Part shown: piece by piece, positions 12,926 through 50,173 of the stretch
Numbering within the stretch: position 1 is the stretch's first letter
How the letters are laid out: the number at the start of each line of letters is the position of its first letter
Origin: Schaalia radingae
Lineage (GTDB): Bacteria > Actinomycetota > Actinomycetes > Actinomycetales > Actinomycetaceae
Reading direction: 5' to 3'
DNA length: 64,000 nt
Assembly: GCF_900106055.1 (NCBI RefSeq)
Contig: NZ_LT629792.1
Coordinates: forward strand, 1,798,001-1,862,000
Program-made: the position numbers and the translations under genes
Notes under the pieces: generated by a model
The model's database searches: none
What the model was told of the DNA's origin: nothing
The model's input: only the letters and a program-made list of their open reading frames with translations

Positions 12926-13048
12926 CCCAACTGTCGATCTGAGGGTCGAATCGACGATTCTCCGCTGAGACTTCCTCGCATCACAGCTGGTCAAGGGGCT
13001 GCTAGGGAAGCAGGACCGGAACTTTCAGCCTTCAAATCGACACTCGGG
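12926..13048. repeat. Paired-arm element 1
   Basis: Left arm CCCAACTGTCGATCTG at 12926-12941 and right arm AAATCGACACTCGGG at 13034-13048 are imperfect inverted repeats about 92 bp apart. The core contains GCTGGTCA, a variant of the GCAGGTCA box seen in other copies. Pyrimidines precede it and GAGGGAGGGA follows. It is intergenic between rpsJ and tuf. Confidence 0.8.
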
Positions 13049-13276
13049 TAGAGGGAGGGAAGTCTTAACGAAAAGATCTGCGGAGTATCCGTGTTCGAAG
13101 TTTTTTCGGAACTCCTTCGAGAAGCATTCGCAAACAATAGATGTTAGGTCTAGCACATAGGCATACCTACAAGATTGTTCGCGTAGCCGATCGGAGGAGT
13201 TCTTGCGGCGCCACCGCGCCTTCACTCCTAATCTCTGCAGAGACTTCTTTCCAGCACTGCCCTTTCCCCACCTCTA

Positions 13277-13399
13277 CCCATCTGTCGATCTCAAGGACAC
13301 CTATGGAAGGACATCCCTTGGCGCGACTGCATCGGTGCAGGTCACAGCCAATTCACCTTCGTTTACTCAAACGGAATGCTGCCGAGATCGACAGTTGGG
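13277..13399. repeat. Paired-arm element 2
   Basis: Left arm CCCATCTGTCGATCTC at 13277-13292 and right arm GAGATCGACAGTTGGG at 13384-13399 pair over nearly their full length. The core of about 91 bp includes GTGCAGGTCACAG. It lies 228 bp after element 1, making a tandem of two elements in one gap. About 228 bp of unassigned sequence separates them. Confidence 0.85.
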
Positions 13400-13873
13400 T
13401 AAACAACCGGTGGGAAACAGGCAGATAGACAGCTAGGAGCAAAAAGCTCGAGGCGGAACAGTTCAAAGTAGAACGGCTCAGGCCGGAACAGTTCGGAACG
13501 CAAGAAGAGATGGGGCCGGAACAGTTCGGAGCGCGAAAAGGTGCCAGACCCGAATTCGTTGGAGCATACAGCGCCATCGCCGCGTAATAGCGACAGAAAG
13601 CATATACACGCCCCTTGGCTATTGATCTCACGGTCAGACAATGGGAAGCACGAATCACACTGGGCCGACAAAAGGGCGGAGAACGCTAAAGGCCGGAGCA
13701 GGCTAAGAGACGGACTACAGCTAGGAGCCGGAGCCGCCAAAAGACAGAGCACGAGAAAAGGGCGGCGCTACCAAAAGGCAGAACACGCTTCAGGCCAGAG
13801 GGCGCCAAAGGAATGGGCGCGCTTTGAAACAGAGCACGCAAAAAGACAGAAACGGCAAGAAGATACAGCAGCA
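13400..13873. repeat. Purine-rich tract with degenerate repeats
   Basis: The plus strand is strongly A/G rich over 470 bp. The unit GGCCGGAACAGTTCGGA occurs at about 13480-13500 and 13513-13530, with a weaker copy near 13452-13465. Related units (AGAACGCTAAAGGCCGGAG, AGACAGAGCACG, AGAACACGCTTCAGG) continue to about 13855. No gene is supported. The tract mirrors the pyrimidine-rich tract before element 1. Confidence 0.6.
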
Positions 13874-13920
13874 CAAAAAAGATGGGCTTGGAAGCATCTT
13901 TCGATGCCACCAAGCCCATC
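13874..13920 (-). terminator. Intrinsic terminator of the str operon (after tuf)
   Basis: On the minus strand GATGGGCTTGG pairs with CCAAGCCCATC (11 bp), with an inner GGCATC/GATGC stem, followed by six T residues. It lies about 125 bp after the tuf stop and is the clearest rho-independent terminator in this half of the window. Confidence 0.88.
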
Positions 13921-13947
13921 TCAGCTCATTCGGCTCACCGCCAGGCG

Positions 13948-13958
13948 CCCTCGTCAAT
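13948..13958 (-). repeat. ATTGACGAGGG motif
   Basis: Exact copy on the minus strand (followed by CGC) between the tuf stop and its terminator. Confidence 0.8.
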
Positions 13959-14045
13959 ACCGACTCAAACGGCCCAAACGGGGAACCTCGCGAGTGCCAG
14001 CGCCAGTTACAGTCGGCTCAATGCCAACTGCACCCAGCTACCGAA

Positions 14046-15236
14046 TCACTTATCGATTTCGGTCACACGACCTGAACCAACGGTGTGGCCACCCTCGCGG
14101 ATAGCGAAGCCCAGGCCGGGCTCCATTGCGATGGGGTGAATCAGTTCAACGGTGATTTCTGTGGTGTCGCCAGGCATAACCATCTCGGTGCCCTCGGGCA
14201 GCGTGATGACGCCGGTGACGTCCGTGGTACGGAAGTAGAACTGAGGACGGTAGTTGGAGAAGAACGGCTTGTGACGGCCGCCTTCGTCCTTCTTCAGGAT
14301 GTAAACCTGGCCCTTGAAGTTCGTGTGAGGCGTGATGGAGCCGGGGACGGCCACAACCTGGCCGCGCTCGACATCTTCGCGCTTCGTGCCACGCAGCAAC
14401 AGACCGCAGTTCTCGCCTGCCCATGCTTCATCCATGGACTTGTGGAACATTTCGATACCGGTGACGGTGGTCTTCTGGGTCGGGCGGATGCCGAGGATCT
14501 CGACTTCAGAGTTCAGAGCCAGCTTGCCGCGCTCGACACGGCCGGTCACAACGGTGCCACGGCCGGTGATGGTGAAGACGTCCTCGATCGGCATCAGGAA
14601 CGGCTTGTCGAGATCGCGCTCAGGGGTCGGGACGTACTCGTCCACTGCATCCATGAGCTCTTCGATTGCCTTCGTCCACTTCTCGTCGCCCTCAAGAGCC
14701 TTGAGCGCCGAGACGCGGATGATCGGGGCGTTGTCGCCATCGAAGTCCTGAGAGTTGAGCAGGTCGCGGCATTCTTCCTCAACGAGCTCCAGCATTTCCT
14801 CATCATCCACGGCATCGCTCTTGTTCAGAGCAACAAGGATGGTGGGGACGCCGACCTGACGGGCAAGCAGAACGTGCTCGCGGGTCTGAGCCATCGGGCC
14901 GTCGGTTGCTGCGACCACCAGAATTGCGCCGTCCATCTGGGCTGCACCGGTGATCATGTTCTTGATGTAGTCAGCGTGACCGGGGGCGTCAACGTGTGCG
15001 TAGTGACGCTTCTCGGTCTGGTACTCCACGTGGGAGACGTTAATCGTGATGCCACGATCGCGCTCTTCAGGAGCGTTGTCGACGTTCTCGAACGGCGTGT
15101 ACTCGTTCAGTTCCGGGTACTTGTCGTGCAGAACTTTGGTAATTGCTGCTGTCAGCGTCGTCTTGCCGTGGTCAACGTGTCCGATGGTACCGATGTTGAC
15201 GTGCGGCTTGGTGCGCTCGAACTTGGCCTTCGCCAC
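14046..15236 (-). CDS. tuf: Elongation factor Tu
   Basis: GTPase that delivers aminoacyl-tRNA. G motifs are GHVDHGKTT near residue 19, [12 protein letters not shown] near 81 (the DAPGH form is usual in actinobacteria) and NKSD near 136. The GTG start has an AGGAGG site 6 bases upstream. Length is a normal 396 residues. It is last in the str operon but separated from fusA by 348 bp that appears to hold its own promoter. Confidence 0.98.
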
Positions 15237-15280
15237 TTGTGTCCTCCTGGACTCGGGTAGATGTTCTCAGCCTATGGCTA

Positions 15281-15316
15281 GGTGTTAGCTTAACACCCAC
15301 AGGGCGTGAGATCCTA
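15281..15316 (-). promoter_or_regulatory. Putative tuf promoter -10 box and downstream palindrome
   Basis: TAGGAT at 15311-15316 matches the actinobacterial -10 consensus; the -35 region is poor. About 14 bases further on is a perfect palindrome GGTGTTA-agc-TAACACC (15281-15297), which would sit near +10 of the transcript as an operator or 5' hairpin. The rest of the 348-bp fusA-tuf gap shows no other feature. Confidence 0.4.
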
Positions 15317-15584
15317 CAGGGTTTCTATTGAATTGGAGTGCGGATCTGCGCTGCAGCTTTCACACTGCCCCTTGACAGTGATCCCCGCCACCTCGCTCAC
15401 CGGAATCCCGGCGCTATCCGTCTTGCGCTGCACTGACGCTCCGGTCTCGACCGATCGGTTCCGGCGCGGGACCCCGCTACTGCGAGGTCCCCCACCGCTG
15501 ACCGATCTGACCAGTGCAATCACGCAGCGCAACAGGCAATAGCACTACGGTACACCGATCGGGGTTGATCCGACCCCGTGGGAC

Positions 15585-17708
15585 TCACTCGCCCCGAGAC
15601 TTTCCGACGATTTCCTCTGAAACGCTACGAGGAACCTCGGCGTAGCTGTCGAACTGCATCGAGTACACGGCGCGTCCCTGGGTCTTGGACCGCAGGTCGC
15701 CAACGTATCCGAACATTTCCGACAGCGGAACTTGCGCGCGAACAACACGCACACCATGCTGCTCATCCATTGACTGGATGGCACCACGACGAGAGTTCAG
15801 GTCGCCGATCACGTCGCCCAGATATTCATCAGGCGTACGCACCTCGACGGCCATAATCGGCTCAAGAAGAACCGGCTTCGCCTTCTTGGCGGCTTCACGC
15901 ATGGCCATTGAACCTGCGATCTTGAACGCCATTTCAGACGAGTCAACTTCGTGGTATGCACCGTCAAGAAGCGTGGCTTTGACATCCACCATCGGGTATC
16001 CAGCCAGAACACCGGAGTGCATGGCTTCCTGAATACCAGCGTTTACAGAGGGGATGTACTCACGCGGAACGCGGCCACCGGTGACTTTGTCCTCGAAGAC
16101 GTACTCTTCTTCGGAATCGCTCGGCAGCGGCTCCAGCATGATGATGACGCGGGCGAACTGACCCGAACCACCGGTCTGCTTCTTGTGAGTGTATTCAAAC
16201 TTTTCGACGGTCTTACGGATCGTCTCGCGGTAGGCGACCATCGGCTTGCCGACGTTAGCCTCGACCTTGAATTCGCGACGCATACGGTCAACAATGATGT
16301 CGAGGTGAAGCTCGCCCATACCACCGATGATGGTCTGGCCACTTTCCTGGTCCAGCTCAACGGTGAAGGTCGGGTCCTCTTCAGCCAGCTTCTGGATGGC
16401 GACGCCCATCTTTTCCTGGTCAGCCTTCGACTTCGGCTCGACAGCCACGTGAATAACGGGCTTCGGGAAGGTCATCGACTCCAGAACAATCTGATCGTTC
16501 AGGTCACACAGCGTGTCGCCGGTGGTGGTGTCTTTCAGACCGATCACAGCGTAGATGTGACCAGCGTGCGCCAGATCAACCGGGTTCTCCTTGTTGGAGT
16601 GCATCTGGAAGATCTTGGAGATACGCTCACGCTTACCCTTGGTCGAATTCATGATCTGGGAGCCGGCTTCCATCTTGCCGGAGTAGACGCGGATGAAGGT
16701 CAGCTTGCCGTAGAACGGGTGCGCCGCAATCTTGAATGCCAGCGCTGAGAAAGGCTCGTTCTCATCGGGATGACGAACGAGGTTCTCTACCTCAGAGTCA
16801 TCACCAGGTTCGAAACCGCTGACGGATTCGATATCCAGAGGTGAGGGCAGGAAGCTGATCACACCGTCCAGCACGGGCTGAACACCCATGTTGCGCAGTG
16901 CGGTACCGCAGTAGACCGGGAAGGCCTTGCCTGAAACGGTCAGCGCACGCACGCCTTCCTTGATCTGGTCAACGGTCAGTTCGCCGTTTTCCAGGTAAGC
17001 TTCCATGAGCTCGTCGTTGCCTTCAGCGGCGGCTTCCATCAGAGCCTCACGGTATTCCTCGGCCTTGTCCTGCAGGTCGGCGGGAATCTCGCCTTCCTCG
17101 ACGATGGCACCAAGGGTGGGCTTACCGTCTGCGTCAGTTGCCGGGTAATGGAAAGCCTTCATTGACAGCAAGTCAACGTTGCCTTCGAAGGTATCCTCGG
17201 CGCCAATGGGCAGCTGCATGACGATCGGGTTCGCTTTGAGGCGATCCTTGATGGTCTGCACCGAGTAGTAGAAGTCGGCGCCCAGCTTGTCCATCTTGTT
17301 GATGAAGCAGATACGTGGGACGTTGTACTTGTCGGCCTGACGCCACACGGTTTCTGACTGAGGCTCCACACCTTCCTTACCATCGAAGACAGCCACGGCG
17401 CCGTCGAGCACACGCAGTGAGCGCTCAACTTCCACCGTGAAGTCCACGTGGCCAGGGGTATCGATGATGTTGATCTGGTTGCCTTTCCAGAAACAGGTCA
17501 CAGCAGCCGAGGTAATCGTGATGCCACGTTCCTTTTCCTGGTCCATCCAGTCAGTGGTTGACGCACCGTCGTGCGTTTCACCGATCTTGTAGTTAATGCC
17601 CGTGTAGAACAGGATGCGTTCAGTCACGGTCGTCTTGCCGGCATCAATGTGAGCCATGATGCCAATATTGCGGACCTTCCTCAGGTCTGTTAGCACTTCT
17701 TGTGCCAC
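15585..17708 (-). CDS. fusA: Elongation factor G
   Basis: Translocase GTPase. G1 is [10 protein letters not shown]3 DTPGHVDF, G4 NKMD. I place the start at GTG 17708 ([16 protein letters not shown]), because GAAGGA lies 8 bases upstream and the family normally begins this way; an ATG at 17753 would add 15 non-conserved residues. Length is then 707, typical. The gap to rpsG (17709-17857) contains a one-mismatch copy of the ATTGACGAGGG motif at 17752-17762. Confidence 0.96.
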
Positions 17709-17857
17709 GGAGTTGTCCTTCGCTTCGTCGTGCGTTCTTTCGGTGATCCCCATTAACGAGGGCGGAGCCCCGCTGGGGATTAAACAGCTGGCAAAAGTAT
17801 TATTTCACGCAGCATGGTTGTCAGCGGCGTCAGAGGCCGCCCTCGGGAATGGAAAAA

Positions 17858-18328
17858 TCACCAACGGTAATGGGCGAATGCGCGGTTCGATTCGGCCATC
17901 TTGTGCATGTCCTCGCGGCGCTTCACAGCGGCACCGAGGCCGTTGGACGCATCGAGAACTTCGTTAGCGAGACGCTCGGTCATGGTCTTCTCACGACGTT
18001 GACGCGAGAAGTCAACCAGCCAGCGCAGAGCCAGAGTGGTGGCGCGGGCCGGGCGAACCTCAACCGGAACCTGGTAGGTAGCGCCACCGACACGGCGGGA
18101 ACGCACCTCAAGGGCTGGGCGGATGTTGTCCAGAGCGCGCTTGAGAACCACCACTGGATCCTGCTCGGTACGCTCACGCACTGTCTCGAGCGCGCCGTAC
18201 ACGATGCGTTCAGCCAACGACTTTTTGCCGTCGAGCAGAACACGGTTGACCAGTTGCGAGACGATCTTGGAACCGTAAACCGGATCGTCGACAAGCGGGC
18301 GCTTGGGAGCTGGGCCTTTACGAGGCAT
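17858..18328 (-). CDS. rpsG: 30S ribosomal protein S7
   Basis: Nucleates the 30S head. It starts [20 protein letters not shown] and has the signature [19 protein letters not shown] and [21 protein letters not shown]. 156 residues. It overlaps the rpsL stop by one base. Confidence 0.98.
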
Positions 18329-18702
18329 TACTTCTTCTCCTTCTTCGCACCGTAACGTGAACGAGCCTGCTGGCGGTTGCGCACGCCCTGCGTATCAAGT
18401 GATCCGCGGACAATACGGTAACGGACACCAGGGAGGTCCTTCACACGACCACCGCGGACGAGCACGATGGAGTGCTCCTGGAGGTTGTGTCCCTCACCTG
18501 GGATGTAAGCCGTCACTTCGATGCCTGACGAAAGGCGCACACGGGCAACCTTGCGCAGCGCAGAGTTCGGCTTCTTCGGGGTGGCGGTGTACACACGGGT
18601 GCACACGCCACGGCGCTGAGGCGAGCCCTTGAGCGCAGGCGTCTTCACTTTGCCGCGCTTGGAGCTGCGCCCTTTGCGGACGAGCTGCTGGATTGTAGGC
18701 AC
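18328..18702 (-). CDS. rpsL: 30S ribosomal protein S12
   Basis: Decoding-centre protein and first gene of the str operon. The GTG at 18702 ([18 protein letters not shown]) has GGAG about 10 bases upstream and gives 124 residues. The streptomycin-determining loops read [11 protein letters not shown] and [14 protein letters not shown], which are wild-type and predict streptomycin sensitivity. Confidence 0.97.
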
Positions 18703-19448
18703 TGAAAAATTCTCCAGTCGTTGTGCACTCTGATGACTGTGTTTGCCTGTGTCAGCAGCTGCCCCGTTGTCGGGCCAGTGTCCGGTTGAATTTCGCTGCC
18801 GTGAGTTCGGCGGCGGATCGTTGCCGGTTGACGAGGGCAAGCCACGCATCGTCGTGCGTTTTCTTGTGTGGTGCCCGGCGTAGCGCAGGCACCCTGGCTT
18901 CAGTCAGCCCGATATTGTCAAGTCCCCTGACTGGGCAGCGTTGATCCATCAGGGGCCGGCGCGCCATGATGTCCGACGGTTAGCGTGCTGCTCAGCTTGT
19001 TCTGCTGTGCACCCAAGCTGTGGGGCCTGCTGCCCGTGCGGTCAGAGAATGACGCCCGGAGCTCCGATGGCACGAGGGCGAGGGGGCGATGTCCGTCCGC
19101 TCGGTATCCTCCTTGTGGAGCCCGATGCTTGTATCACCGGTTGTGGCGCTGCGTCTTGATCACTGGTGCGATCAGTGTCGCATCGCCGCCAGATCGTGTG
19201 ATCAAGCGGTCAGGTGACCCGATGTACTCGGGTTACCGCATTTCAGCTTAGTTTGTGGGCGGCGGGCACGTCAATTGTGTACGGCGTGAGCTAAGGCGCA
19301 TTCTGGACGGAGGCGCGGTCGGAGTGGATTGTTAGGAATGGAGTCACGGGAACTTCCGACGCCTCGCGGCAGGCCGCTTACGGCGACTGCCGGGCGACCT
19401 TCCAAGGAGGGCTTCCCATCGACCCCGTCCCTTCCTCCGCCCCTGCTC
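18703..19448. other. Gene-free region upstream of the str operon
   Basis: No gene supported. On the minus strand a TTGACA hexamer near 18923-18928 could be a -35 box for rpsL, but no good -10 follows. A one-mismatch motif copy GTTGACGAGGG lies at 18827-18837 and is followed by CCACGCATCGTC, which also follows the exact motif inside element 4. Confidence 0.45.
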
Positions 19449-19501
19449 CTCTTACTCTTACTCTTACCCTTACCTTACCCTTACCCTTACCCTTACCCTT
19501 A
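19449..19501. repeat. Telomere-like simple repeat (CTTACC)n
   Basis: About nine units of CTTAC, CTTACC and CTTACCC run directly into the left arm of element 3. It appears to be a simple-sequence expansion inside the pyrimidine tract that precedes every element. Confidence 0.85.
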
Positions 19502-19613
19502 CCCAACTGTCGATTTCAGCACGATCTTCGGCACTACCTTTCATAAAAACTGTTCTTGACCTGCGGTTTTAAAAAACATCTTGTCGAATCGCGCCTCGAG
19601 ATCGACAGTTGGG
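19502..19613. repeat. Paired-arm element 3
   Basis: Left arm CCCAACTGTCGATTTC (19502-19517) and right arm GAGATCGACAGTTGGG (19598-19613) are near-perfect inverted repeats 80 bp apart. The core is unusually AT-rich and has TGACCTGC, the reverse of the GCAGGTCA box. A purine tract (GAAAGAAAGGAAGGGAGGGAG) follows. The next 360 bp up to 19975 show no gene. Confidence 0.88.
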
Positions 19614-19975
19614 TGAAAGAAAGGAAGGGAGGGAGTAGTGGAAGGAAAGCGGAAAGATTGCCCGGCGACCTCCCTGCAGAAGTTGTCCCGATGGAATCGT
19701 GGAATATTCCAAGGCGAACCGACCAGAGGGAATCCTCACGGCCGAGGGTACCCGCCCGGCTCAAGCCGAGTTATCCACAAGTATCACCCCTACCACCACC
19801 GTATCCACAAGCTGCCGCTCTTATTGCCGCATACGCCGCTTCCCCATGTCATGCTCTTTCAGCCATGCAACTCGACATAACCGTCCGCACGCCCAACACA
19901 ACCATCACGCATCCAGCTCTATCGCCACACAGTCAGTGCTCGACAACTGGGCACCCTTAGAAAGGAGGTATCCGA

Positions 19976-21232
19976 GTGACCACCTACATCGAGCACCTTC
20001 ACCTCGCTACAACCTCGCGCCACCGCCGCCTCAGCGCCCTTAAGAAACAAACTGGTCAGTACTACGCGCGCGTTAAGCGAGGCGTCACGTGGCGCATCGA
20101 TCCCAGCGCTACCCAGAGTGAAACGTGGAAGATCCGCAATGATGCCGCCTTGGCACGGATTGCGGCCACCTGTCTGACGCATCCGCACGCGACATTCATA
20201 GGCCCATCTGCAGCTTTGCTCCACGGCCTGTGGTGCTGGGACCGTTCGCCTGACGTTCACATCCTTACGCATGGCAGACCAGGAAACGAATCCCCGACCT
20301 TGCCTCGGATTGAGATTCGCTGCGGCCACCCTCGGCGATCCCCCATCGAAGCAAGCAGAATTTCTATCCCAGCTGCCCGAATAATGCGACACCAGGTACC
20401 AGCTGTCGGGCCGATACGCACGGTCAGAATCCGCGGATCCAGCATCGACCGCGGGCGTGAAAGCGACGTGTCGGGGTCGCGCCGTCGAATGCTGCTACGT
20501 GTGGCGACACTTGAGGACACGCTCATTTTGTGCGCTCTCACGATGCCGGCGAGCCACGCGTTCGTGACGCTATGCGACGGGATGCGTCGGCTGAGTCACT
20601 TCAACAAGCACCATCAGGACAGGTCTCGCAAGGCTGAAGAGCGTGTGCGAGCTGCTCTGGTCCGCCAGCTTAGTCGCTTTCCGAGGGAGCATCGCAATGT
20701 GGCTCGCGCGAGATGGCTCATACAGCATGCGGATGCGGGCTGCGAATCAATTGGCGAGGCGATGCTGCTGTGGATAGTTCGCAGTCGGAAGCTTCACGCT
20801 GTGCGCACACAGTTTGAAGTGCGCCAACGCCCAGCTGAGAGCCTTGCTGGAGCGCGCTCGGCGAGCGTGTACTTCATCGATATTGCTTTTCCGCGCGAGA
20901 AGGTCGCACTTGAATTTGACGGCCGCAGCAAACGAGGCGTGTCGCACTCACAGATCGCTCACTCTTACCAATCTGAGGGCAGGAGGCAGCGAGATTTGGA
21001 GGCGCGCGGCTGGGTTTTCGAACGCTTCATTTGGGACGATTTGCACCACCCTGAGCATTCGGCTGCGCGGATCGAAGCCCGGTTGCGTGGGACGCGCGTG
21101 GAAAGCGCTGATCGACGTATTGGTTCTCCGAATCGACGAGGGAGGCCGCGAGCGCCCGCGCGAGATCGGTGCCAACGAGTTGAATGCAGATGCCCTGAAT
21201 GTGGTGCACTGTTGAATGTGCTTGCTTCGTGA
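19976..21232 (+). CDS. DUF559-type protein with a Vsr/PD-(D/E)xK-like nuclease domain
   Basis: A 418-residue protein of a family common in actinobacteria; its biological role is unknown. The N-terminal 200 residues look like an AbiEi-type region (SAALLHGLWCWDRSP, VATLEDTLILCAL). The C-terminal domain has VYFIDIAFPREKVALEFDGR near residues 298-317 and RQRDLEARGWVFERFIWDDL near 340-360, which fit the acidic residues and strand order of a Vsr-like endonuclease fold. The GTG start has a strong GGAGGT site. The last 45 residues are Arg-rich and poorly conserved in appearance. Function as a nuclease is inference. Confidence 0.75.
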   Translation: MTTYIEHLHLATTSRHRRLSALKKQTGQYYARVKRGVTWRIDPSATQSETWKIRNDAALARIAATCLTHPHATFIGPSAALLHGLWCWDRSPDVHILTHGRPGNESPTLPRIEIRCGHPRRSPIEASRISIPAARIMRHQVPAVGPIRTVRIRGSSIDRGRESDVSGSRRRMLLRVATLEDTLILCALTMPASHAFVTLCDGMRRLSHFNKHHQDRSRKAEERVRAALVRQLSRFPREHRNVARARWLIQHADAGCESIGEAMLLWIVRSRKLHAVRTQFEVRQRPAESLAGARSASVYFIDIAFPREKVALEFDGRSKRGVSHSQIAHSYQSEGRRQRDLEARGWVFERFIWDDLHHPEHSAARIEARLRGTRVESADRRIGSPNRRGRPRAPARDRCQRVECRCPECGALLNVLAS

Positions 21233-21256
21233 AAGAACTGCCGAAAACTGCATGAA

Positions 21257-21293
21257 GGTGCCGAGCTCTACCTTGGTGGTACAGCTCGGCACC
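21257..21293. terminator. Bidirectional terminator hairpin
   Basis: GGTGCCGAGCT and AGCTCGGCACC form an 11-bp perfect stem with a 15-base loop. It lies between the plus-strand DUF559 gene and the minus-strand 39-residue peptide gene, downstream of both. No T tract is present. Confidence 0.75.
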
Positions 21294-21357
21294 TAGAGAC
21301 TAATCGGCGTGACTAAGCGTGCAAATTCGACAGGTCTTCGATCTGCGAATTAGTTGC

Positions 21358-21477: not shown

Positions 21478-21600
21478 GGTGTCTCCTCCATTTGACTAGT
21501 GGATCAACGTAGTCAATTCTATGTGCTTCTCTGCGCCAATGCAGGGACTCGATACTGTTCTTCCGCCGTTAATAGTCTCCAATTCCCACCTCCTTCTCTC

Positions 21601-21735
21601 CCCTACTGTCGATTTCAAGGCCCATCCGACGGTTCTCTCCACGCATCTCGATCCACAAATGCCTGCTGGCCAGTGACGATGCGTGGGGCACCCTCGTCAA
21701 TTGGGAGGATACGGCAGCCAAATCGACACTTGGGT
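21601..21735. repeat. Paired-arm element 4
   Basis: Left arm CCCTACTGTCGATTTC and right arm AAATCGACACTTGGG (21721-21735) are imperfect inverted repeats. Inside is a 9-bp inverted repeat CCACGCATC (21639-21647) and GATGCGTGG (21679-21687) and an exact ATTGACGAGGG copy on the minus strand. The flanks are CCTCCTTCTCTC before and GGCGGGGAGGGAAA after. Confidence 0.82.
21692..21702 (-). repeat. ATTGACGAGGG motif inside element 4
   Basis: Exact copy, followed on the minus strand by TGCCCCACGCATCG, close to the extended consensus with CCCACGC. Confidence 0.82.
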
Positions 21736-23023: not shown

Positions 23024-23157
23024 CCCGTCTGTCGATCTGAAGGGCAGGTCACCGGCAATCGCACCCACGGACGAGGCATTTGCACTGGTCAGGAGTAACC
23101 TCACGGGAGGTAGAGCCGTGATGAATCCAGTGAGAGGCTTCCAGGTCGACAGGTGGG
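23024..23157. repeat. Paired-arm element 5
   Basis: Left arm CCCGTCTGTCGATCTG (23024-23039) and right arm CAGGTCGACAGGTGGG (23142-23157), about 102 bp apart. The core contains GCACTGGTCAGG, a variant of the GCAGGTCA box. A clear CCTTCTCCCTCTCC tract precedes it. It lies between the divergent cutinase and DUF6318 genes, a gap of about 400 bp with no other feature. Confidence 0.8.
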
Positions 23158-33140: not shown

Positions 33141-33333
33141 CCCTTCTGTCGATCTCGACCGGTTTTCTTCGCAATTGACGAGGGTACCCATCCGTTTATG
33201 CAGGTCGCAGGCGCGGACGTGCAATGACACCCGAACTGAGTGCGCTGAGATCGACAGATGGGTGAATCGAAGGGAGGAAGTCAAGATCGACGGTCGGGTA
33301 AATGAGGGGAGAAAGTCGAGATCGACAGACGGG
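33141..33333. repeat. Paired-arm element 6 with three right arms
   Basis: Left arm CCCTTCTGTCGATCTC (33141-33156) and right arm GAGATCGACAGATGGG (33247-33262), then two further right arms, AAGATCGACGGTCGGG (33283-33298) and GAGATCGACAGACGGG (33318-33333), in a purine-rich stretch. The core holds an exact ATTGACGAGGG copy and TTATGCAGGTCGCAGG. It lies between rpoB and the serine hydrolase gene. Confidence 0.88.
33174..33184 (+). repeat. ATTGACGAGGG motif inside element 6
   Basis: Exact copy, followed by TACCCATCC. Confidence 0.82.
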
Positions 33334-34912: not shown

Positions 34913-35035
34913 CCCATCTGTCGATTTCAACGGGTCTGAGTGACCTATTGCCGAGCAGACTCCGCTCCTTTTGCAGGTCAGAAGCTCGCGAGCATATACG
35001 GCGTGTCTGCAAACGAAGTGAGATCGACAGTTGGG
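34913..35035. repeat. Paired-arm element 7
   Basis: Left arm CCCATCTGTCGATTTC (34913-34928) and right arm GAGATCGACAGTTGGG (35020-35035) about 91 bp apart. The core has TTTTGCAGGTCAGAAG, shared with element 6, and a degenerate ATTGCCGAGCAG in place of the motif. It fills much of the 399-bp gap between the serine hydrolase and rmlB genes. Confidence 0.85.
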
Positions 35036-37919: not shown

Positions 37920-38075
37920 CCCAACTGTCGATCTGGAGCTCCCGTTATCGTCCTAATTGACGAGGGAGGCCCACACCTTCCGCGAATAACACTCTCTGAC
38001 CAGTGAAAACGTTCGTCAGTGTTGAAAGCCAGTAATCCAGCCCGCCTTCTTGGTCCATCGAGATCGACAGTTGGG
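37920..38075. repeat. Paired-arm element 8
   Basis: Left arm CCCAACTGTCGATCTG (37920-37935) and right arm GAGATCGACAGTTGGG (38060-38075), 124 bp apart, with an exact ATTGACGAGGG in the core and a TGACCAGTG box. A 200-bp pyrimidine tract (37720-37919) precedes it, and a purine-rich stretch (38076-38160) follows. It separates rplA from the rplJ leader. Confidence 0.9.
37956..37966 (+). repeat. ATTGACGAGGG motif inside element 8
   Basis: Exact copy, followed by AGGCCCACACC. Confidence 0.82.
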
Positions 38076-38292: not shown

Positions 38293-38334
38293 AATGGGGG
38301 TGGGTTCGCACACGCGTGCGAACCCACCCCCATT
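38293..38334 (-). terminator. Terminator hairpin after rplA
   Basis: A 19-bp perfect inverted repeat (AATGGGGGTGGGTTCGCAC and its complement) with a 4-base loop, 147 bp after the rplA stop. There is no T tract, as in other GC-rich terminators here. It should close the secE-nusG-rplKA unit. Confidence 0.78.
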
Positions 38335-41444: not shown

Positions 41445-41648
41445 TCACCGCTTGTCACAGGCTGACGCCCATGACCCGCCCCGCTAGTTTAGGGCGTTAA
41501 CGCGCCAGTGTACAACTTCACGCCGCATGTAGAAAATCACAGATCTGTGTTTTTGGCTTCCACCGTCCGCACCAGCACCCCTGATCATAGCGCGTCCATT
41601 CCTAGGAATTTTCTTCCGCACGGCCTCCAATCGTGCAACGATAGAGAC

Positions 41649-42863: not shown

Positions 42864-43012
42864 GACTCACTTTCTGCCTGGGCGAGGCTGATCGCTGGTT
42901 CAGCATCGGCGAGCGTTGTTTCTGCTTCAGCATCGGCGAATTCCATCTCGGTTGCAGCATGCCCGCACCTGACCATTTGCTGTTGCGGTCGCACCACCAA
43001 TTCTGCCCTTTT

Positions 43013-43042
43013 GGCGCTGATAAGCGCTCATCAGCGCCTTTT
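43013..43042 (+). terminator. Intrinsic terminator after aspC
   Basis: GGCGCTGAT and ATCAGCGCC form a 9-bp perfect stem with an 8-base loop, followed by TTTT. It lies 150 bp after the aspC stop. Confidence 0.8.
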
Positions 43043-43060
43043 AACAGGCACAATAGTGGT

Positions 43061-43900
43061 ATGCAGTTGTTCACCCATCACACATCCGATCCCCAGCCTC
43101 ACGGCACCGTCTTGATCTGCCACGGATACGCCGAGCATCAAGGCCGCTACAGGCGCCTCGTCGATTCTCTCAATCACGATGGCTACGACGCAGTGACATT
43201 CGATCTGAGCGGACACGGAAGTGCAGATGGTCCACGTGCTCAAGTCGATGTCGGCCGTCTCATTACAGAGCACCGCGCAGCGCGCGCAGACGCCCTCGCC
43301 AATTCGCGCACGTCGCAGCTATTTGTGTTGGGTCATTCCATGGGCGGCATTATCACCGCTGCATCTGTCCTCATCGATCCGGATCATGTTGCCGGCATGG
43401 TGCTGACCGGTCCGGCATTTCGTCCCGCCGCGCCGATCACTGCCAAGGTAGCTCGCTCCATGCTGACACTGGCTCGCGTCGCCCCCGGATTGCCCACAGC
43501 GAAGCTTGATGCGGGCGGCGTCTCGCGCGACCCTGACGTGGTGGACGACTACGAAAACGATCCGCTCAATTTCCATGGACCCGTCCCGCTGATCACTGCA
43601 CTGACGATGTGCGTTCAGGGCGACCACACGATCGCACGAGCCGATTCACTCAGCGTGCCCACCCTGGTCATCCACGGCTCACATGACCATCTTGCTCGCC
43701 CGAGTGGGTCAGAGGAATTCGTGCGCAATGCTCGACTGTCACTGGCATGGGGCACGCACACCCCCGACGCGCACCTACGCGTCATCGACGGCGCATACCA
43801 CGAAGTACTGAACGAGCCTGAAGGTCCCGGCCTGATGCGGGATATCGCCTTGTGGATGGACGCGCGCCGGCCGGCTGCCGATAATGGTGCTGATGCCTGA
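43061..43900 (+). CDS. Alpha/beta hydrolase, monoacylglycerol lipase type
   Basis: A 279-residue serine hydrolase without a signal peptide. The oxyanion region is LICHGYAEHQGRY (18-30), the nucleophile elbow GHSMGG (Ser 93), the acid is in HGSHDHLARP and the His in DGAYHEVLNEPEG. The pattern matches monoacylglycerol lipases and lysophospholipases. It overlaps the next gene by about 17 bp, so they are probably cotranscribed. Confidence 0.85.
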   Translation: MQLFTHHTSDPQPHGTVLICHGYAEHQGRYRRLVDSLNHDGYDAVTFDLSGHGSADGPRAQVDVGRLITEHRAARADALANSRTSQLFVLGHSMGGIITAASVLIDPDHVAGMVLTGPAFRPAAPITAKVARSMLTLARVAPGLPTAKLDAGGVSRDPDVVDDYENDPLNFHGPVPLITALTMCVQGDHTIARADSLSVPTLVIHGSHDHLARPSGSEEFVRNARLSLAWGTHTPDAHLRVIDGAYHEVLNEPEGPGLMRDIALWMDARRPAADNGADA

Positions 43901-45026
43901 ACATTCTCACAGCATGCCCCCGCCGATGCCGCTGCGTCCGATTGCTTCACCCAGTCCCAGTGACCAGCCCATATTGACGAAGGCGGCGCCCACGCCCCCC
44001 GGCCGGCGGCCCCTGGCCACATTGCCCAAGGCACAGCTGCATCTGCACTTCACCGGCGCGATGCGACCGCGCACTCTGGTCGAACTCGCTGTGGAAAAAG
44101 GCGTCCGACTGCCGCCTCATTTGCTGGACATGGATCCGCTCACGGTCCCGGCAGATGCGCGCGGATGGTTCCGCTTCCAGCGCGCCTACGATGCAGCCCG
44201 CGTGTTAGTTCGCACCGAGGATGTTATGCGCCGCCTCGTGCGTGAGGCTGCCGAGGATGACGCGGCGGAAGGCTCTGTGCATCTGGAAATGCAGGTTGAT
44301 CCCACGTCGTATGCACCGTGGGTTGGCGGCATCACTCCCGCCCTCGAAATCATTCTGGACGAGGCGCGCGCATCCAGCGAAGCAACTGGTGTGGATGTCA
44401 GCATCGTGGTCGCTGCCTCGCGTATCCGCCACCCCTTAGATGCACGCACCCTCGCCCGCCTGGCATCTCAGTACGCTGGCAGGGAGCCGGGCACCGTCGT
44501 GGGATTCGGTCTGTCCAACGACGAGCGGGTGGGCTCAACCGCGCAGTTCGGTGCTGCCTTCAACATTGCGCGTGACGCTGGTCTTGCGTCGGTTCCGCAT
44601 GGAGGCGAGCTGCTGGGACCCTCATCGGTGCGTGAAGTCCTGGCAGCGCTCTCCCCGACCCGGCTGGGACACGGTGTCAGGAGCACGGAGGATCCGGACC
44701 TGCTCAAGCGCCTGGTCGATGACGGCATTGCGTTGGAAGTATGTCCCACGTCTAACGTGCACCTCGGGGTGTATCCAGACATTGCGCACGTCCCTTTGCC
44801 TGACTTGATGGCGGCCGGCGCCACAATCGCCTTGAGCGCCGACGACCCGTTGCTGTTCCACTCGCGCCTGTTGGCTCAATACGAGGCTGCTCGAGATGTT
44901 TTCGGTCTGAGCGACGAGCAGCTTGCGGAACTGGCCCGTCAGTCGATCCGCGCCTCCCTGGTGTCATTTGACCGCAGGCGCATCTGGAACGCGCAGATTG
45001 ATCGGTGGTTGGCCAATGAGCCGTGA
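43884..45026 (+). CDS. add: Adenosine deaminase-family protein
   Basis: Amidohydrolase-fold enzyme of 380 residues. Metal ligands HLHFTG (His 53, His 55), HGGE near 235, GHGVRS near 261 and SADDPLLF near 315 follow the adenosine deaminase order, though HGGE replaces the usual HAGE. Adenosine or a related purine is the likely substrate. The N-terminal 45 residues are Pro-rich, so the true start may be one of several downstream Met codons. Confidence 0.85.
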   Translation: MVLMPEHSHSMPPPMPLRPIASPSPSDQPILTKAAPTPPGRRPLATLPKAQLHLHFTGAMRPRTLVELAVEKGVRLPPHLLDMDPLTVPADARGWFRFQRAYDAARVLVRTEDVMRRLVREAAEDDAAEGSVHLEMQVDPTSYAPWVGGITPALEIILDEARASSEATGVDVSIVVAASRIRHPLDARTLARLASQYAGREPGTVVGFGLSNDERVGSTAQFGAAFNIARDAGLASVPHGGELLGPSSVREVLAALSPTRLGHGVRSTEDPDLLKRLVDDGIALEVCPTSNVHLGVYPDIAHVPLPDLMAAGATIALSADDPLLFHSRLLAQYEAARDVFGLSDEQLAELARQSIRASLVSFDRRRIWNAQIDRWLANEP

Positions 45027-46008
45027 GATGAACGAACACGAGAATGCTGCTGAATCGGTTCGGCAGTGGCCGCTGTGGCACTGGTTCGCCCCTGCGGAGA
45101 CGTTGCGCCAAGAGGTACCTTCGTGGGTCACGATACCGCCAATTCCGCAGCGCCTGGCCGTCGCTGCCAACGATTTAGTGGGCGCTGCGCGCCGTCGCCT
45201 CCAGCTCATGACATCTGTCGTATGCGACACGCTTTCGGCGGCCGGTGATTCGTCCGGCAGTCAGAACGGTTCGGATGATTCGGCAGCCTCACCATCGGCC
45301 GGCCCGCAGTCACCCTCGCCGATAACCGTAACAAGTAGCGCGCTCGCCCAGCCTGCCACAGACGCGGGTACGTCCACTCAGCCTGCCGCGAGCGCACACA
45401 CACCTGCGACGCTCGCCGCGAGCACAGCAACACCTGACTGCGCGGCGCGGCCAGTCGCCATCGGGATTCCCGGCATCTGGGAGTCGCGCCACTATCTCGA
45501 CCCGTGGGCGCGCGCGCTGGCCGACGCCGGGTGGGACGCACGAATCCTGGAAGGCGTGCGCGCTATGCGCCGCCCGATTGACACGATTGCTCAGATGGCC
45601 GAGCGCTACCTTGCGCGAGAAAACCTCACTCATGTGCTGCTCTATTCGCATTCCAAAGGCGGACTGGTGGCCAAAGCGATCATGGCCGGTCCCGAGGGAT
45701 GGCGTATTCGGCACCTCATCACCTTTGCGACGCCCTTCGATGGAGCACCGATCGCACGCCTGTTGCCGATCCCGAGTTTGCGTGAACTCTCCCCCGGCTC
45801 CCCCGCCATTCGCCCCCTGGCCTCACGCACTGACCTGAACGCACGGATCACTCAGATTGAGGCGACGTGGGATGAGAACGTCCCTCCCACTACGCTTCCA
45901 GGCGCGCATCGCCGGGTCATTTTGCCCATCTACGGTCACGGTCAGATGCTTGAATCGCGCGGAGCAGCACGAACATTGGTCCAGCTGGCTGAGCCGTACC
46001 GCTGTTAA
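45016..46008 (+). CDS. Alpha/beta hydrolase with a disordered linker
   Basis: 330 residues. The N-terminal 70 residues have WPLWHWFAPAETLRQEVPSW, then a Ser/Ala/Thr-rich linker to about residue 145. The hydrolase part has IGIPGIWESRHYLDPWARAL as oxyanion region and LYSHSKGGLV with Ser 213 as nucleophile, and a GHGQML histidine near the end. It overlaps add by about 11 bp. Substrate unknown; a triacylglycerol-type lipase is the closest description. Confidence 0.78.
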   Translation: MSREMNEHENAAESVRQWPLWHWFAPAETLRQEVPSWVTIPPIPQRLAVAANDLVGAARRRLQLMTSVVCDTLSAAGDSSGSQNGSDDSAASPSAGPQSPSPITVTSSALAQPATDAGTSTQPAASAHTPATLAASTATPDCAARPVAIGIPGIWESRHYLDPWARALADAGWDARILEGVRAMRRPIDTIAQMAERYLARENLTHVLLYSHSKGGLVAKAIMAGPEGWRIRHLITFATPFDGAPIARLLPIPSLRELSPGSPAIRPLASRTDLNARITQIEATWDENVPPTTLPGAHRRVILPIYGHGQMLESRGAARTLVQLAEPYRC

Positions 46009-47219
46009 ATTTGCTCTCCCAGGACAACGGGTTCTGGCACAAGCGTCACGCCAAAACTTCCCTTCACCCCTGCGCGCACCGCCCGCGCCAGATCACGGAT
46101 ATCCTGTGCGCAGGCTCCTCCTCGGTTAGTCAGCGCCAGGACGTGCTTAGTGGACAGTGAAGCGCGCGCCGAACTGTGGCCACCGCACGGTTCACACTCG
46201 TCAGACAGCGCAAACCCTTTTCCAAAACCCGCACGGTCGATCAGCCACGCTGCCGATGTCTTGACCAGGCCCCGCCCAGCGTCAAATCGCGGAGCCTCAG
46301 GTGGCAACAGCCGCTCCGCCTCATCGGCATCAAGAATCGGGTTCGTGAAGAACGATCCGGCCGACCACGTGTCATGGTCCCCCTCGTCAATCACCATGCC
46401 CTTGGAGGCACGCAGGCGCAGGACCTCGCTGCGTACGCGATTCGTCTCGACCTGCTGTCCAATTGGAACGTCCAATGCGCGCGCGAGCTGGGAATACGCG
46501 ACGGGTGCAGACATGTGTGAGCGTGTGAGCTGCAGCGTGACATCTAGGACGACCCAGCGCCCGGTAGGCCCCCACTGCGAGCCGTCCATGCGAGGTGTCA
46601 GACGCGACTGCTTCAGAATGGATGAACGATAGCCGAGCTCAAGGTCATCGTGGGTCAACTCGACGCGGCGCTGCTCAAGGCGATCCCACGCGCCTATGTG
46701 GAGCAGTGTGTGGGCAACTTCGCCGCCGTACGCTCCGATGTTCTGCACAGGTGCCGCCCCAACCGTTCCGGGGATTCCTGACAGTGCTTCCAGGCCCGAC
46801 AGCCCCCGCTTCACACTCTCATTGACGAGGGCGTCCCACGCCACGCCAGATGCAGCCGTCACGATGACAGGTGAGCTCTGCGGCGCGGATGGCTCCGAGG
46901 GGGTCCAGGTGACATCTGTTTCAAGGCTTGCGCGAGCGTCACGAATCACCGTTCCATCAAACGGTGCATCGTCAGCCAGGATGTTCGATCCGCCGCCCAA
47001 AATCAGGAGGCGGTCAGGGCTGTGTTCATCGTCGGCGCGGCGCACCGCATCAATGAAGGCGTCTTCAGTGGAAGGCTCAACGAGGGTGGCCACCGGACCG
47101 CCGACACGAAAGGTCGTCATGTCAGACAGGCGGGGGGCATGCGTACGGGCGCGCGGGCGCCTATGCTCCTCGGCGTTGATCGATGGTCGGTTCTTCCCCT
47201 GTTCGCTCACGTAGGACAT
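46005..47219 (-). CDS. murB: UDP-N-acetylenolpyruvoylglucosamine reductase
   Basis: Makes UDP-MurNAc for peptidoglycan, FAD-dependent. Landmarks are TTFRVGGPVATLVEP near residue 36, LSGIPGTVGAAPVQNIGAYGG near 144-164, and SAGSFFTNP near 288-296. The 404 residues include a 30-residue tail before the domain. Two exact ATTGACGAGGG copies lie inside it (46381-46391 and 46821-46831). It is convergent with the hydrolase gene, ending 4 bp inside its stop. Confidence 0.93.
   Translation of the reverse strand: MSYVSEQGKNRPSINAEEHRRPRARTHAPRLSDMTTFRVGGPVATLVEPSTEDAFIDAVRRADDEHSPDRLLILGGGSNILADDAPFDGTVIRDARASLETDVTWTPSEPSAPQSSPVIVTAASGVAWDALVNESVKRGLSGLEALSGIPGTVGAAPVQNIGAYGGEVAHTLLHIGAWDRLEQRRVELTHDDLELGYRSSILKQSRLTPRMDGSQWGPTGRWVVLDVTLQLTRSHMSAPVAYSQLARALDVPIGQQVETNRVRSEVLRLRASKGMVIDEGDHDTWSAGSFFTNPILDADEAERLLPPEAPRFDAGRGLVKTSAAWLIDRAGFGKGFALSDECEPCGGHSSARASLSTKHVLALTNRGGACAQDIRDLARAVRAGVKGSFGVTLVPEPVVLGEQI
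46381..46391 (-). repeat. ATTGACGAGGG motif inside murB
   Basis: Exact copy on the coding strand, encoding Ile-Asp-Glu-Gly just before the SAGSFFTNP motif, where MurB usually has a Leu-Asp-Pro turn. Confidence 0.78.
46821..46831 (+). repeat. ATTGACGAGGG motif inside murB (antisense)
   Basis: Exact copy on the non-coding strand, followed by CGTCCCACGCC; the coding strand reads Trp-Asp-Ala-Leu-Val-Asn. Confidence 0.8.
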
Positions 47220-47220
47220 C

Positions 47221-48453
47221 CTAGCTGTCTGACTCAGGGCGCAGGTAGCGTGTCAGCCACGCACCAACCGCAACCGGAACAATCAGACACGTCAGAGCAC
47301 GGTGGTACCCGATATGCGAGGCGAGCAAGCCGAGCACAGGCGGACCGATCAGGAATGCGCCGTAATTGATGGTGGACAGCACCGACAGGCGCGCAGCTGT
47401 CATCGACGGGTCGTGGGACAGGGCAGAAGCACCGGTGGGATACACCAGGGCGGCGCCGAATGCCCACAACACCACGCCAATCATCGCAATACCCCACACG
47501 GGTGCGAAACCGACCAGGATCAGTCCGGGACATGCGGCGATCAGCATGCCACGCAATAAAACATCAGGTGGCCAGTGCCGACGCAGCCACGCCGCGCTGA
47601 GCCTGACGATCACCACCGTGGCGAGGAAACCGGACAGTACCGCAGAGCCTTGCGCCGCCGTCATGTCGTATCCATCAACCATCGCCAGTGCAAGCCAATT
47701 ATTTGCTGACCCCTCCAGCAATCCCGAGGACAACACCATCAGGCCGATCAACAGCGTGCGTTTTTCGCCCCACGCCTTTCGCGTACGGGCCGTTGATCCG
47801 CCGCTTCCAAATATCCGGCGACGCTTGGGAGCGCCGTCGCTCACAGATTGGGCGAGCACATCGTCCTCGGTGAGCAGGAACGCGGTTGCGACTGCGACGC
47901 AGGTCAGGCCAAAGACGATCACTCCCAGCAGATGATGGGTGACATGGACGGCCGCCCTCGCCATTGCGGCGCCTGAAAGGGCGCCGGTGACCGTGCCGAT
48001 CGAGAACATCGCGTGGAATCGGTCCAGGACTGGGTGGCCGAGGGCGACTTCGATTAGTCCGCCTGCAGTGTTAATTGTTGACCCTGTCAACGACATCCCC
48101 ATCGACACGAAGATGAGGCTCAGTGACAACAAATCGAGCGACCCCACGTGGATAGATGCCACCACGCAGCCCATACCCACAGCCCACAGCACACCCGCGA
48201 GGCGGCCGCTCATACGCGGCCCAATCGCCCCGACTACCGGGCCTGAGGAGGGAAGCGCCACCAGTGACCCGATAGAGCCGATGAGGAGCATTGCGCCGAT
48301 CTGAGTCGGGCTGAGGTTCAGAGAATCACGCACTGCCGGCAAGCGAGACACCCACGAGGAACTGGCAAAGCCCATGAAAAAGAACATAGCGGCGTCAGCA
48401 ATGACGGCACGACGTATCCGCGATTGGGGCAGATCTCTGCGTGACAGGCTCAT
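47221..48453 (-). CDS. Major facilitator superfamily transporter
   Basis: 410 residues with about twelve hydrophobic segments. It begins near SRLPAVRDSLNLSPTQIG, a pattern of the bacterial MFS group related to YbjJ/FucP-like proteins; the substrate is unknown. The ATG at 48453 is chosen because GGGAAGG lies 6 bases upstream, while the Met at 48474 has no ribosome site. Confidence 0.85.
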   Translation of the reverse strand: MSLSRRDLPQSRIRRAVIADAAMFFFMGFASSSWVSRLPAVRDSLNLSPTQIGAMLLIGSIGSLVALPSSGPVVGAIGPRMSGRLAGVLWAVGMGCVVASIHVGSLDLLSLSLIFVSMGMSLTGSTINTAGGLIEVALGHPVLDRFHAMFSIGTVTGALSGAAMARAAVHVTHHLLGVIVFGLTCVAVATAFLLTEDDVLAQSVSDGAPKRRRIFGSGGSTARTRKAWGEKRTLLIGLMVLSSGLLEGSANNWLALAMVDGYDMTAAQGSAVLSGFLATVVIVRLSAAWLRRHWPPDVLLRGMLIAACPGLILVGFAPVWGIAMIGVVLWAFGAALVYPTGASALSHDPSMTAARLSVLSTINYGAFLIGPPVLGLLASHIGYHRALTCLIVPVAVGAWLTRYLRPESDS

Positions 48454-48544
48454 GACAGCCTTCCCTGTGGCCATATTGTGCCGATCGAATAAGTGCCGTG
48501 CGTGGCTATCTAGTGCGCCGGGGCGGCGGAAACGCAGCGTGCAT

Positions 48545-48575
48545 AAACCCCCGGGCTGTTGAACAGCTCCGGGGG
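48545..48575 (-). terminator. Terminator after rpmG
   Basis: CCCCCGG and CCGGGGG with an inner AGCTGTT/AACAGC stem, followed by TTTAT on the minus strand, 30 bp after the rpmG stop. Confidence 0.78.
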
Positions 48576-48604
48576 CATGACAGTTGCGAGGCGTCGCTGG
48601 AACG

Positions 48605-48775
48605 TCACCGAGTTTCGCGGTGCGTCGTCGACTTGCGGCAACGCGGGCAATACTTGGCCAGCTCGAGGCGGTCAGGCGTATTGCGACGATTCTTCCTGGT
48701 GATGTAGTTACGTTCCTTGCACTCCGAGCACGCCAGAGTGATCTTGGGGCGAACGTCCTGAGACTTGCTTGCCAC
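48605..48775 (-). CDS. rpmG: 50S ribosomal protein L33
   Basis: 56 residues starting at GTG 48775 ([20 protein letters not shown]). Two CxxC pairs (CSEC and CPRC) make it the zinc-binding form. The usual [16 protein letters not shown] end is present. It follows tRNA-Met directly, as in many actinobacteria. Confidence 0.96.
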
Positions 48776-48830
48776 GATCTTTCCTTCACTTGAGGTTCTG
48801 AGATTATCGCCGGAGACCGGGAGGTCACGG

Positions 48831-48904
48831 TAGCGGGGGCGGGACTCGAACCCGCGACCTCACGATTATGAGTCGTGCGCTCTAACCAGCTGAGCTACCC
48901 CGCC
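48831..48904 (-). tRNA. tRNA-Met (anticodon CAT)
   Basis: 74 nt. Acceptor GGCGGGG pairs with CCCCGCT (one G-U), anticodon loop CTCATAA, T arm GCGGGTTCGAGTCCCGC, discriminator A. The G1-U72 pair argues for an elongator, not the initiator. Confidence 0.94.
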
Positions 48905-48937
48905 GTGGTAGGTCGCGACTGCGAGGCCGCAAACCAG

Positions 48938-49010
48938 AGCCCCGAAAGGGAATCGAACCCTTGACCTTCTCCTTACCATGGAGACGCTCTGCCGACTGAG
49001 CTATCGGGGC
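48938..49010 (-). tRNA. tRNA-Thr (anticodon GGT)
   Basis: 73 nt. Acceptor GCCCCGA/TCGGGGC, anticodon stem TCTCC/GGAGA around ATGGTAA, T arm AAGGGTTCGATTCCCTT. Confidence 0.95.
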
Positions 49011-49126
49011 AACGAGAGAAACTCTAGCCTGACACTCATGCTCGAAGCAATCTCCAGGCTTGAGAGCATCCTCACGTCGCAGAACTGAGCACCTCGAGAG
49101 CGAAGCACTTGTGGCATTCAGTCCAG

Positions 49127-49208
49127 TGGCGGGGGAGGGATTCGAACCCCCGAAGCATTCCGCGGCTGATTTACAGTCAGCTCCCTTTGGCCGCTCGGGC
49201 ACCCCGCC
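49127..49208 (-). tRNA. tRNA-Tyr (anticodon GTA)
   Basis: 82-nt class II tRNA with a long variable arm. Acceptor GGCGGGG/CCCCGCC, anticodon stem GCTGA/TCAGC around CTGTAAA, T arm GGGGGTTCGAATCCCTC. Confidence 0.95.
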
Positions 49209-49345
49209 ATTGACACCAATCATCGGTGCCGTGAAAGAATAACAAAAATACAAGCGTGAGCGCCAATCGGATCACCGGTTTTGACCCGCTCAAATGCGAG
49301 ATATCGAGCACACTCATAGCCAGACGCTGATAGGAAGGGATTCCC

Positions 49346-49849
49346 ATGTCTGATTCATCATTCGACATTGTCTCCAAACTCGACCGCCAGGAAGTGGATA
49401 ACGCTGTCAATCAGGCGGCGAGGGAGGTGTCCCAACGCTACGACTTCCGTAACGTGGACGCATCGATCGAGCTGTCGGGCGATACCGTGGTGATGGAAGC
49501 GAACTCCCCCGAACGCGTGATAGCCATTGTGGACGTGCTGCGCTCCAAGCTCACCAAACGCAAGGTTTCACTTAAGGCACTGGATCTGAAGGATCGTGAG
49601 CCTCAGCCGTCCGGGAAAATCTATCGAATGGTCGTTCCCCTGCGCGAAGGTATCAGCCAGGACAATGCCAGGAAGATTACGAAGCTGATTCGCGACGAAG
49701 GCCCGAAGGGCGTGAAGGCACAGATCCAGGGAGATGAGGTTCGCGTTTCGTCAAAGTCGCGCGATTCCCTGCAGGAAGTCATCGCACTGCTCAGAGGTGA
49801 AGCGGGCCAGAAGATCGACTGCGCGTTGCAGTTCGTGAACTATCGGTAG
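49346..49849 (+). CDS. yajQ: YajQ/UPF0234 nucleotide-binding protein
   Basis: 167 residues. The ends match the family: [20 protein letters not shown] at the start and [12 protein letters not shown] at the end. Homologues bind nucleotides, including cyclic di-GMP in Xanthomonas; the role here is unknown. An AGGAAGGGA ribosome site precedes the ATG. Confidence 0.93.
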
Positions 49850-49893
49850 GATCACCGCCGTCAGATAGCGGCCTTCACCCCCTCTGCCTTGTC

Positions 49894-50173
49894 CCCAACT
49901 GTCGATCTGGAGGCAGTGCGGGCGTCCTCGCCCATATCTGAAGCACCCCACTCTCCTGTCCCCAACTGTCAACCTGGAGGCAGCTTCACCTATGCGAGCA
50001 CTGATTGCTTCCCTCACTGCAAGGTAAAACTGCAGGAAAATAGGGATTTCCCACGTATCAGCCTGACAAGGCTGGCAGGGAAGGTGCAGCCTGGCGTCTT
50101 CTGATCGACAGTTGGGAAAATCAGAGAGTGCGTGCGCAGGGAGCTCGCATTCGCGTCCTAATCGACAGATGGG
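49894..50173. repeat. Paired-arm element 9, nested double copy
   Basis: First left arm CCCAACTGTCGATCTG (49894-49909) and second left arm CCCAACTGTCAACCTG (49961-49976), then right arms TGATCGACAGTTGGG (50102-50116) and AATCGACAGATGGG (50160-50173). The two left arms sit in a 26-bp direct repeat. The core lacks an obvious ATTGACGAGGG. It occupies most of the yajQ-htpX gap. Confidence 0.85.

Follow-up and report, generated by a model that had tools for sequence, protein, structure and literature searches.

The window analysed here is a 64,000-nucleotide stretch of the Schaalia radingae genome (bases 1,798,001-1,862,000 of a single contig of 2,430,193 bp). It carries the genes for EF-Tu, EF-G, and ribosomal protein L1, identified by Pfam, and further genes that we read as S10, S12, L10, L11, and rpoBC from their order and length. 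Dispersed between the genes are nine paired-arm elements, and a nuclease gene (19976..21232, plus strand; product P0001, 418 aa) lies between the third and fourth of them, with element 3 situated 362 bp before and element 4 368 bp after its open reading frame. The original prediction had listed these nine elements as intergenic, and all nine were found where it placed them. None overlaps the nuclease frame or a gene called by our codon-usage gene finder, which missed several genes of unusual codon usage, the nuclease gene among them; some elements are overlapped by mechanically called open reading frames. They lie upstream of genes, downstream of genes, or between convergent genes, with no consistent placement.

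The elements, which we call family A, consist of two inverted 16-bp arms around the word GCWGGTCA or a near variant. Searching the window for the arm pattern CCCAACTGTCGATCTC with up to three mismatches gave 21 matches, whereas 100 shuffles of the window averaged 0.62 and none reached 21, so the common left and right arms described earlier are borne out. Genome-wide, 41 matches with 0-1 mismatch were obtained, compared with 3 for the reversed pattern. The arm contains no GTAG and, read by eye, no internal hairpin. The paired-arm elements are a real dispersed intergenic family, and the interpretation first placed on them is partly supported.

Eight of the nine elements have cores of 80, 90, 91, 102, or 124 bp. 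Elements 1 (12926..13048), 2 (13277..13399), and 7 (34913..35035), all on the plus strand, are 123 bp long with the motif at left/right distances of 60/63 bp from the arms, in the form GCTGGTCA in element 1 and GCAGGTCA in the other two. Element 3 (19502..19613, minus strand, 112 bp) bears GCAGGTCA on the minus strand at 49/63. Element 4 (21601..21734, minus strand, 134 bp) has a near-palindromic center, whose motif can be read at 60/74 on the minus strand with two mismatches or at 64/70 on the plus strand with one. Element 5 (23024..23157, plus strand, 134 bp) holds ACTGGTCA at 60/74 and a second, perfect GCAGGTCA at 20/114, off the spacing lattice described below; its right core and right flank are nearly identical to those of elements at genome positions 1689203 and 1725406. 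Element 6 (33141..33262, plus strand, 122 bp) carries GCAGGTCG at 59/63, and element 8 (37920..38075, minus strand, 156 bp) carries ACTGGTCA on the minus strand at 71/85. Two of the predicted units turned out to be more complex. Element 6 is followed by two extra right arms (33283..33298 and 33318..33333, minus strand), and element 9 (49894..50116, plus strand) is compound rather than simple: it has two left arms (49894 and 49961) and two right arms (50101 and 50158), the last of these being an extra one (50158..50173, minus strand). Within its inner pair (49961-50116, 156 bp), three motif candidates match equally poorly; the one at 71/85 is a degenerate GCAGGAAA with two mismatches. The word GCAGGTCA, reported earlier from the cores, is indeed present, but only as one form of the GCWGGTCA motif along with ACTGGTCA and GCAGTTCA, and this motif occupies a fixed offset from the arms on either strand. 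The occurrence of ATTGACGAGGG in elements 4, 6, and 8 was confirmed, with no fixed position found for it there.

A whole-genome arm search, proposed in the original prediction, yielded 17 paired family A elements, not nine, all within 238 kb of one gene. The count rests on our pairing of arms with 0-1 mismatch, weaker partners included. The eight outside the window are at 1580929, 1689203, 1707274, 1725406, 1786423 (degenerate), 1793628, 1889767, and 2008251; for the arm at 1970144 no partner was seen. Eight 123-bp elements align without gaps, and their sole long conserved block outside the arms is GC[AT]G[GT]TCA at positions 61-68. The family A cores are otherwise mostly unrelated by eye. The flanks are 76% pyrimidine on the left and 67% purine on the right, and no clear element border is readable in them.

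The motif-to-arm distances form a lattice. In family A they are 60/63 (nine elements), 60/74 (four), 49/63 (one), 71/85 (two), and 59/63 (one); in family B, a second arm family of this genome, they are 60/63 (four), 59/63 (one), and 71/85 (two). Thus, 22 of the 24 elements have the motif at 60/63 or displaced by multiples of 11 bp, and the other two are 1 bp off, with the lattice-placed candidate chosen, even if weaker, wherever a core held several (up to two mismatches). Competing candidates occur at 1819601 (a better copy at 64/70), 1821024 (a perfect copy at 20/114), and 1847961 (three with two mismatches). The independent length changes are fewer than these counts, because some elements are related copies, namely the three at 1689203, 1725406, and 1821024 and, separately, the two 156-bp ones of family B. 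In living cells, DNA loops show a helical repeat near 11 bp, as known from the lac literature. The CWGG inside the central motif is reminiscent of the Vsr/Dcm site.

Three arm families, A, B, and C, are present in this genome, and each adjoins its own Vsr/homing-type nuclease gene. P0001 has a Vsr/homing-type PD-(D/E)XK domain, with a weak PF18741/DUF559 match, placed C-terminal to an AbiEi- or MenT-like part that is probably DNA-binding. The Vsr-like catalytic fold and the conserved acidic residues are both found in the nuclease domain; Foldseek alone gave no match with E ≤0.001, and the fold assignment rests on a separate comparison. Neither P0001 nor the family B protein was matched by PADLOC, and homologue searches, with a capped number of candidates, were shallow. 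The next gene downstream of the family A nuclease encodes a cutinase, and at this locus no AbiEii toxin gene is adjacent. A separate PF18741 domain was above cut-off in 35 of 35 genomes searched (G000 C1:1920169; one locus per congener); it belongs to a different, conserved protein, not to P0001, and in most of these genomes lies in an open frame of about 1400 aa.

Families B and C were found by scans of stretches in the same genome and share the motif, with other arms. Family B (CCCSAGGTTCGAWYTSG) comprises seven pairs, all within 1.689-1.786 Mb and clustered around the family's gene as family A is around its own, whose cores likewise look mostly unlike, and one of these elements lies directly upstream of gene B. 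An IS110-family transposase gene (L161:3603-4853; genome 1757602-1758852) stops about 27 bp short of one family B element; the insertion sequence might have used that element or come to neighbor it. Furthermore, genome stretches 1688850-1689336 and 1725406-1725875 form an inverted duplication, each with one A and one B element, and the A elements with their right flank resemble element 5. Family C (TGCACATACCCCTARAA) gave at least 115 matches at up to three mismatches against 10 for the control pattern. In the 18 loci that were read, the arms recur outward every 30-31 bp; in 17 of them the innermost arm starts are 102 bp apart and the motif stands at offset 52, and five of these 17 contain additional motif matches elsewhere. 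Four of the 17 cores, those of the gene-adjoining element and three others, are 98-100% alike, one pair is 91% alike, and all other pairs are 33-74% alike. Specifically, the element at 117 kb matches the gene-adjoining one over 337 bp at 95.8%; the match stops there, and the flanks are unrelated. One family C element has therefore been copied whole, in an element-limited manner; this copying concerns the element and not the gene. Three of the four alike elements have a common left flank, and a neighbor may thus have moved together with some of the copies. The left flanks of three family C elements (L250, L260, and L264) share a GATGTGTCGGGACATCGTTGACA-like stretch, possibly an insertion-sequence end.

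The arrangement extends beyond this species. A profile built from six such proteins, run at E 1e-15 against 198 genomes of the order, had matches in 47. Thirty loci, one per genome and including our own family C gene, were examined for a 14-base inverted repeat that allowed a single mismatch, spanned 60-160 bp in total, and lay no more than 500 bp from the gene. Inverted arms were present at 18 of the 30 nuclease loci (23 of 59 flanks), against 8 of 117 control genes and 9 of 225 control flanks, all from other genomes, and against 7 of 295 shuffled flanks. Perfect 14-mers occurred in nine nuclease flanks versus 1 of 225 control flanks, and at 5 of the 30 loci the gene had an inverted repeat on both sides. 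In G061, a near-palindrome of 77-81 bp stands on both sides of the gene, and its exact arms recur with the same spacing at two further places among the matches listed. In G018, near-perfect ACGCACACAGTTTC arms enclosing a central CAGGTCA stand on either side of a more distant DUF559 gene (L218:2943-3051 and 4110-4215); the lengths of this pair of elements differ by 3 bp rather than by 11. A model built from the eight family A elements by sequence only (R1) detected a relative, G026, with the same layout and different arms, and, less clearly, G027, where arms with only 10-12 matching bases at three places suggest families of the same kind. Tandem single GAATCCGCCGTCTCAAT-type arms surround two motif-bearing units in G027 (L119, C1:1903600-1904150). 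Matches of R1 in other genomes, for example in G004 and in G001 (E 2.2e-4), seemed to be chance or coding sequence.

The distribution of family A was surveyed more widely. In a scan of 35 genomes of the genus, arm matches numbered 41 in our genome (control 3) and 1-10 in each of the remaining 34 (controls 0-4), with no family A paired cluster in those 34 among the matches listed. The strict paired pattern gave 43 loci, at one place each, in a collection of 84,980 species that may leave out near relatives, and 3 in viral contigs; these 43 + 3 loci look like chance. The comparison of empty sites, also proposed originally, gave a mixed outcome. The gap that we read as S10-tuf is 603-690 bp without inverted arms in three congeners versus 1738 bp in our genome, and this is at most suggestive of an empty site, because in a fourth congener the gap is 2120 bp and holds one inverted repeat without the motif.

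Taken together, we consider it somewhat probable that the nine sites are family A copies, the recognition unit of a single-gene system encoded at 19976-21232. The N-terminal part of P0001 would bind both inverted arms, and the intervening DNA would be looped or wrapped such that the arms and the asymmetric GCWGGTCA lie on one helix face. The 11-bp spacing steps would then arise because arms and center must share that face. The nuclease domain may act at or near the element center, and the break, together with its repair, could copy the element from site to site, reaching nearby sites first in families A and B. Only tentatively, at less than even confidence, do we extend this to a class of self-spreading DNA in which a Vsr-type fusion nuclease recognizes a looped three-site element, cuts its center, and spreads and homogenizes it by break repair. 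Arm specificity would vary by family, with word and helical phase constant; the class would reach many actinobacteria, and hairpin-like relatives could flank the gene on both sides. Two findings weigh against these proposals. A convincing motif-centered element was found in only 3 of 20 paralogue regions (genus and own genome), and the N-terminal AbiEi match is tied with MenT-type toxins, which align equally well.

The strongest competitor, still rather unlikely in our estimate, is that the elements are operator or architectural sites, the protein being a regulator or nucleoid organizer and the sites being kept by selection rather than spread by a nuclease. Retention of arms, motif, and phase amid mostly unrelated A and B cores is as expected of selected binding sites, and the element directly upstream of gene B recalls AbiEi autoregulation (PMC7319586). 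However, such sites should not lack a consistent position relative to genes, be copied whole into unrelated flanks as in family C, or be missing as a paired family A cluster from the other genomes of the genus among the matches listed. Another reading is of ordinary miniature inverted-repeat transposable elements (MITEs) moved by a transposase elsewhere in the genome, with the nuclease genes as mere neighbors: the element-limited family C copy, the inverted ends, and the intergenic location all favor it. Yet bystander genes would not be expected to number three paralogues in one genome, each next to its own arm family, nor to have flanking arms at 18 of 30 such genes across the order. Moreover, MITE copies share internal sequence, whereas the A cores look mostly unrelated, B copies have mostly unlike cores, and few C cores are alike; we hold this explanation to be improbable.

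An RNA role for the arms, as a stem with a conserved loop motif, is very improbable. The arms are complementary, which had led to the suggestion of a stem-loop, and near-perfect palindromes of 75-81 bp exist among other families of the order. However, in the eight 123-bp elements the variable arm columns show no covariation beyond shuffles, 131 of 500 of which matched the observed score; columns 4 and 5 are unpaired in 2/8 and 4/8 sequences, and column 16 alone shows two changes on both sides. Because the arms do not covary, we favor protein-bound DNA over an RNA stem, and the motif in either orientation with distances in 11-bp steps indicates a DNA helix. Rfam at gathering score found four tRNAs only in the window, with no element match, and in the loci of six relatives all matches were of low score. 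Thus, of the two observations that were to count together against the original prediction, no covariation was seen, but there are 17 copies and two more families rather than nine copies alone. REPINs of a RAYT transposase have the same layout, namely inverted 16-mers with a conserved spacer, extragenic and in several groups, each near a specific RAYT (PMC3116915). The intergenic inverted doublets are found here, but no Y1_Tnp (PF01797) match occurs in our genome, although the same search was positive in 5 of 14 control genomes. A REP unit is a palindrome, in most cases with a GTAG tag (PMC8266576), and the family A arm shows neither GTAG nor hairpin. Because no RAYT gene was found, we do not assign the elements to REPIN/RAYT, a membership we rate as next to nil, and keep that system as an analogy.

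As an analogy it is close: both systems have dispersed intergenic inverted doublets with a conserved spacer, in several families each near a cognate single gene. The differences are that the enzyme here is a Vsr-type PD-(D/E)XK nuclease rather than HUH, that a central motif lies at helically phased distances, and that family A has no hairpin covariation. By this comparison, we read the elements as REPIN-like dispersed elements, probably served by a different kind of nuclease. The N-terminal part of the protein, which is fused to a nuclease domain, may resemble AbiEi antitoxins and Rv2827c (type IV toxin-antitoxin), with MenT-type toxins aligning as well; unlike in those systems, the elements are dispersed and not confined to the gene's own promoter, and the family A gene is followed by the cutinase gene rather than an AbiEii toxin. 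In contrast to EDxHD homing endonucleases (I-Bth0305I) and Vsr, a free-standing gene encodes the family A nuclease, with no intron or intein seen around it, and the putative target is multi-copy with two arms about 90 bp apart. ERIC, RUP, and Correia elements are near 107-157 bp, intergenic, and have inverted ends, as here, but their copies share cores, whereas families A and B keep only arms, motif, and phase.

The earlier remark that no named family with these arms is known still stands, with no Rfam match at gathering score and no matching repeat family in the literature found. In openly licensed literature, searched by titles and abstract openings, nothing linked DUF559 or MTES_1575 to such repeats, and no role was assigned to these proteins in the literature found. 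The evidence suggests a family of mobile or self-spreading bacterial repeats that is undescribed so far. The link to dispersed elements gives DUF559/MTES_1575 proteins a target and makes a second, unrelated enzyme solution to the REP-type problem testable. It also offers paralogues with differing arms but constant geometry, and in the 11-bp lattice chromosomal helical phasing would have left a natural record.

A role as a replication landmark was considered and rejected: dnaA lies at 2.403 Mb and the A cluster at 1.58-2.01 Mb, so the cluster is neither near nor opposite dnaA. Some features adjoin individual elements in the window. Element 3 has a run of CTTACC-type repeats, mostly CCCTTA (19448-19501), abutting its left arm; element 2 is followed by two copies of GCCGGAACAGTTCGGA plus a variant (13447-13540); and element 5 directly precedes a DUF6318 gene. 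Beyond the L1 gene, about 150 bp from its 3′ end, lies an inverted repeat with perfect 19-bp arms and a loop of 4 bp (38293-38334).

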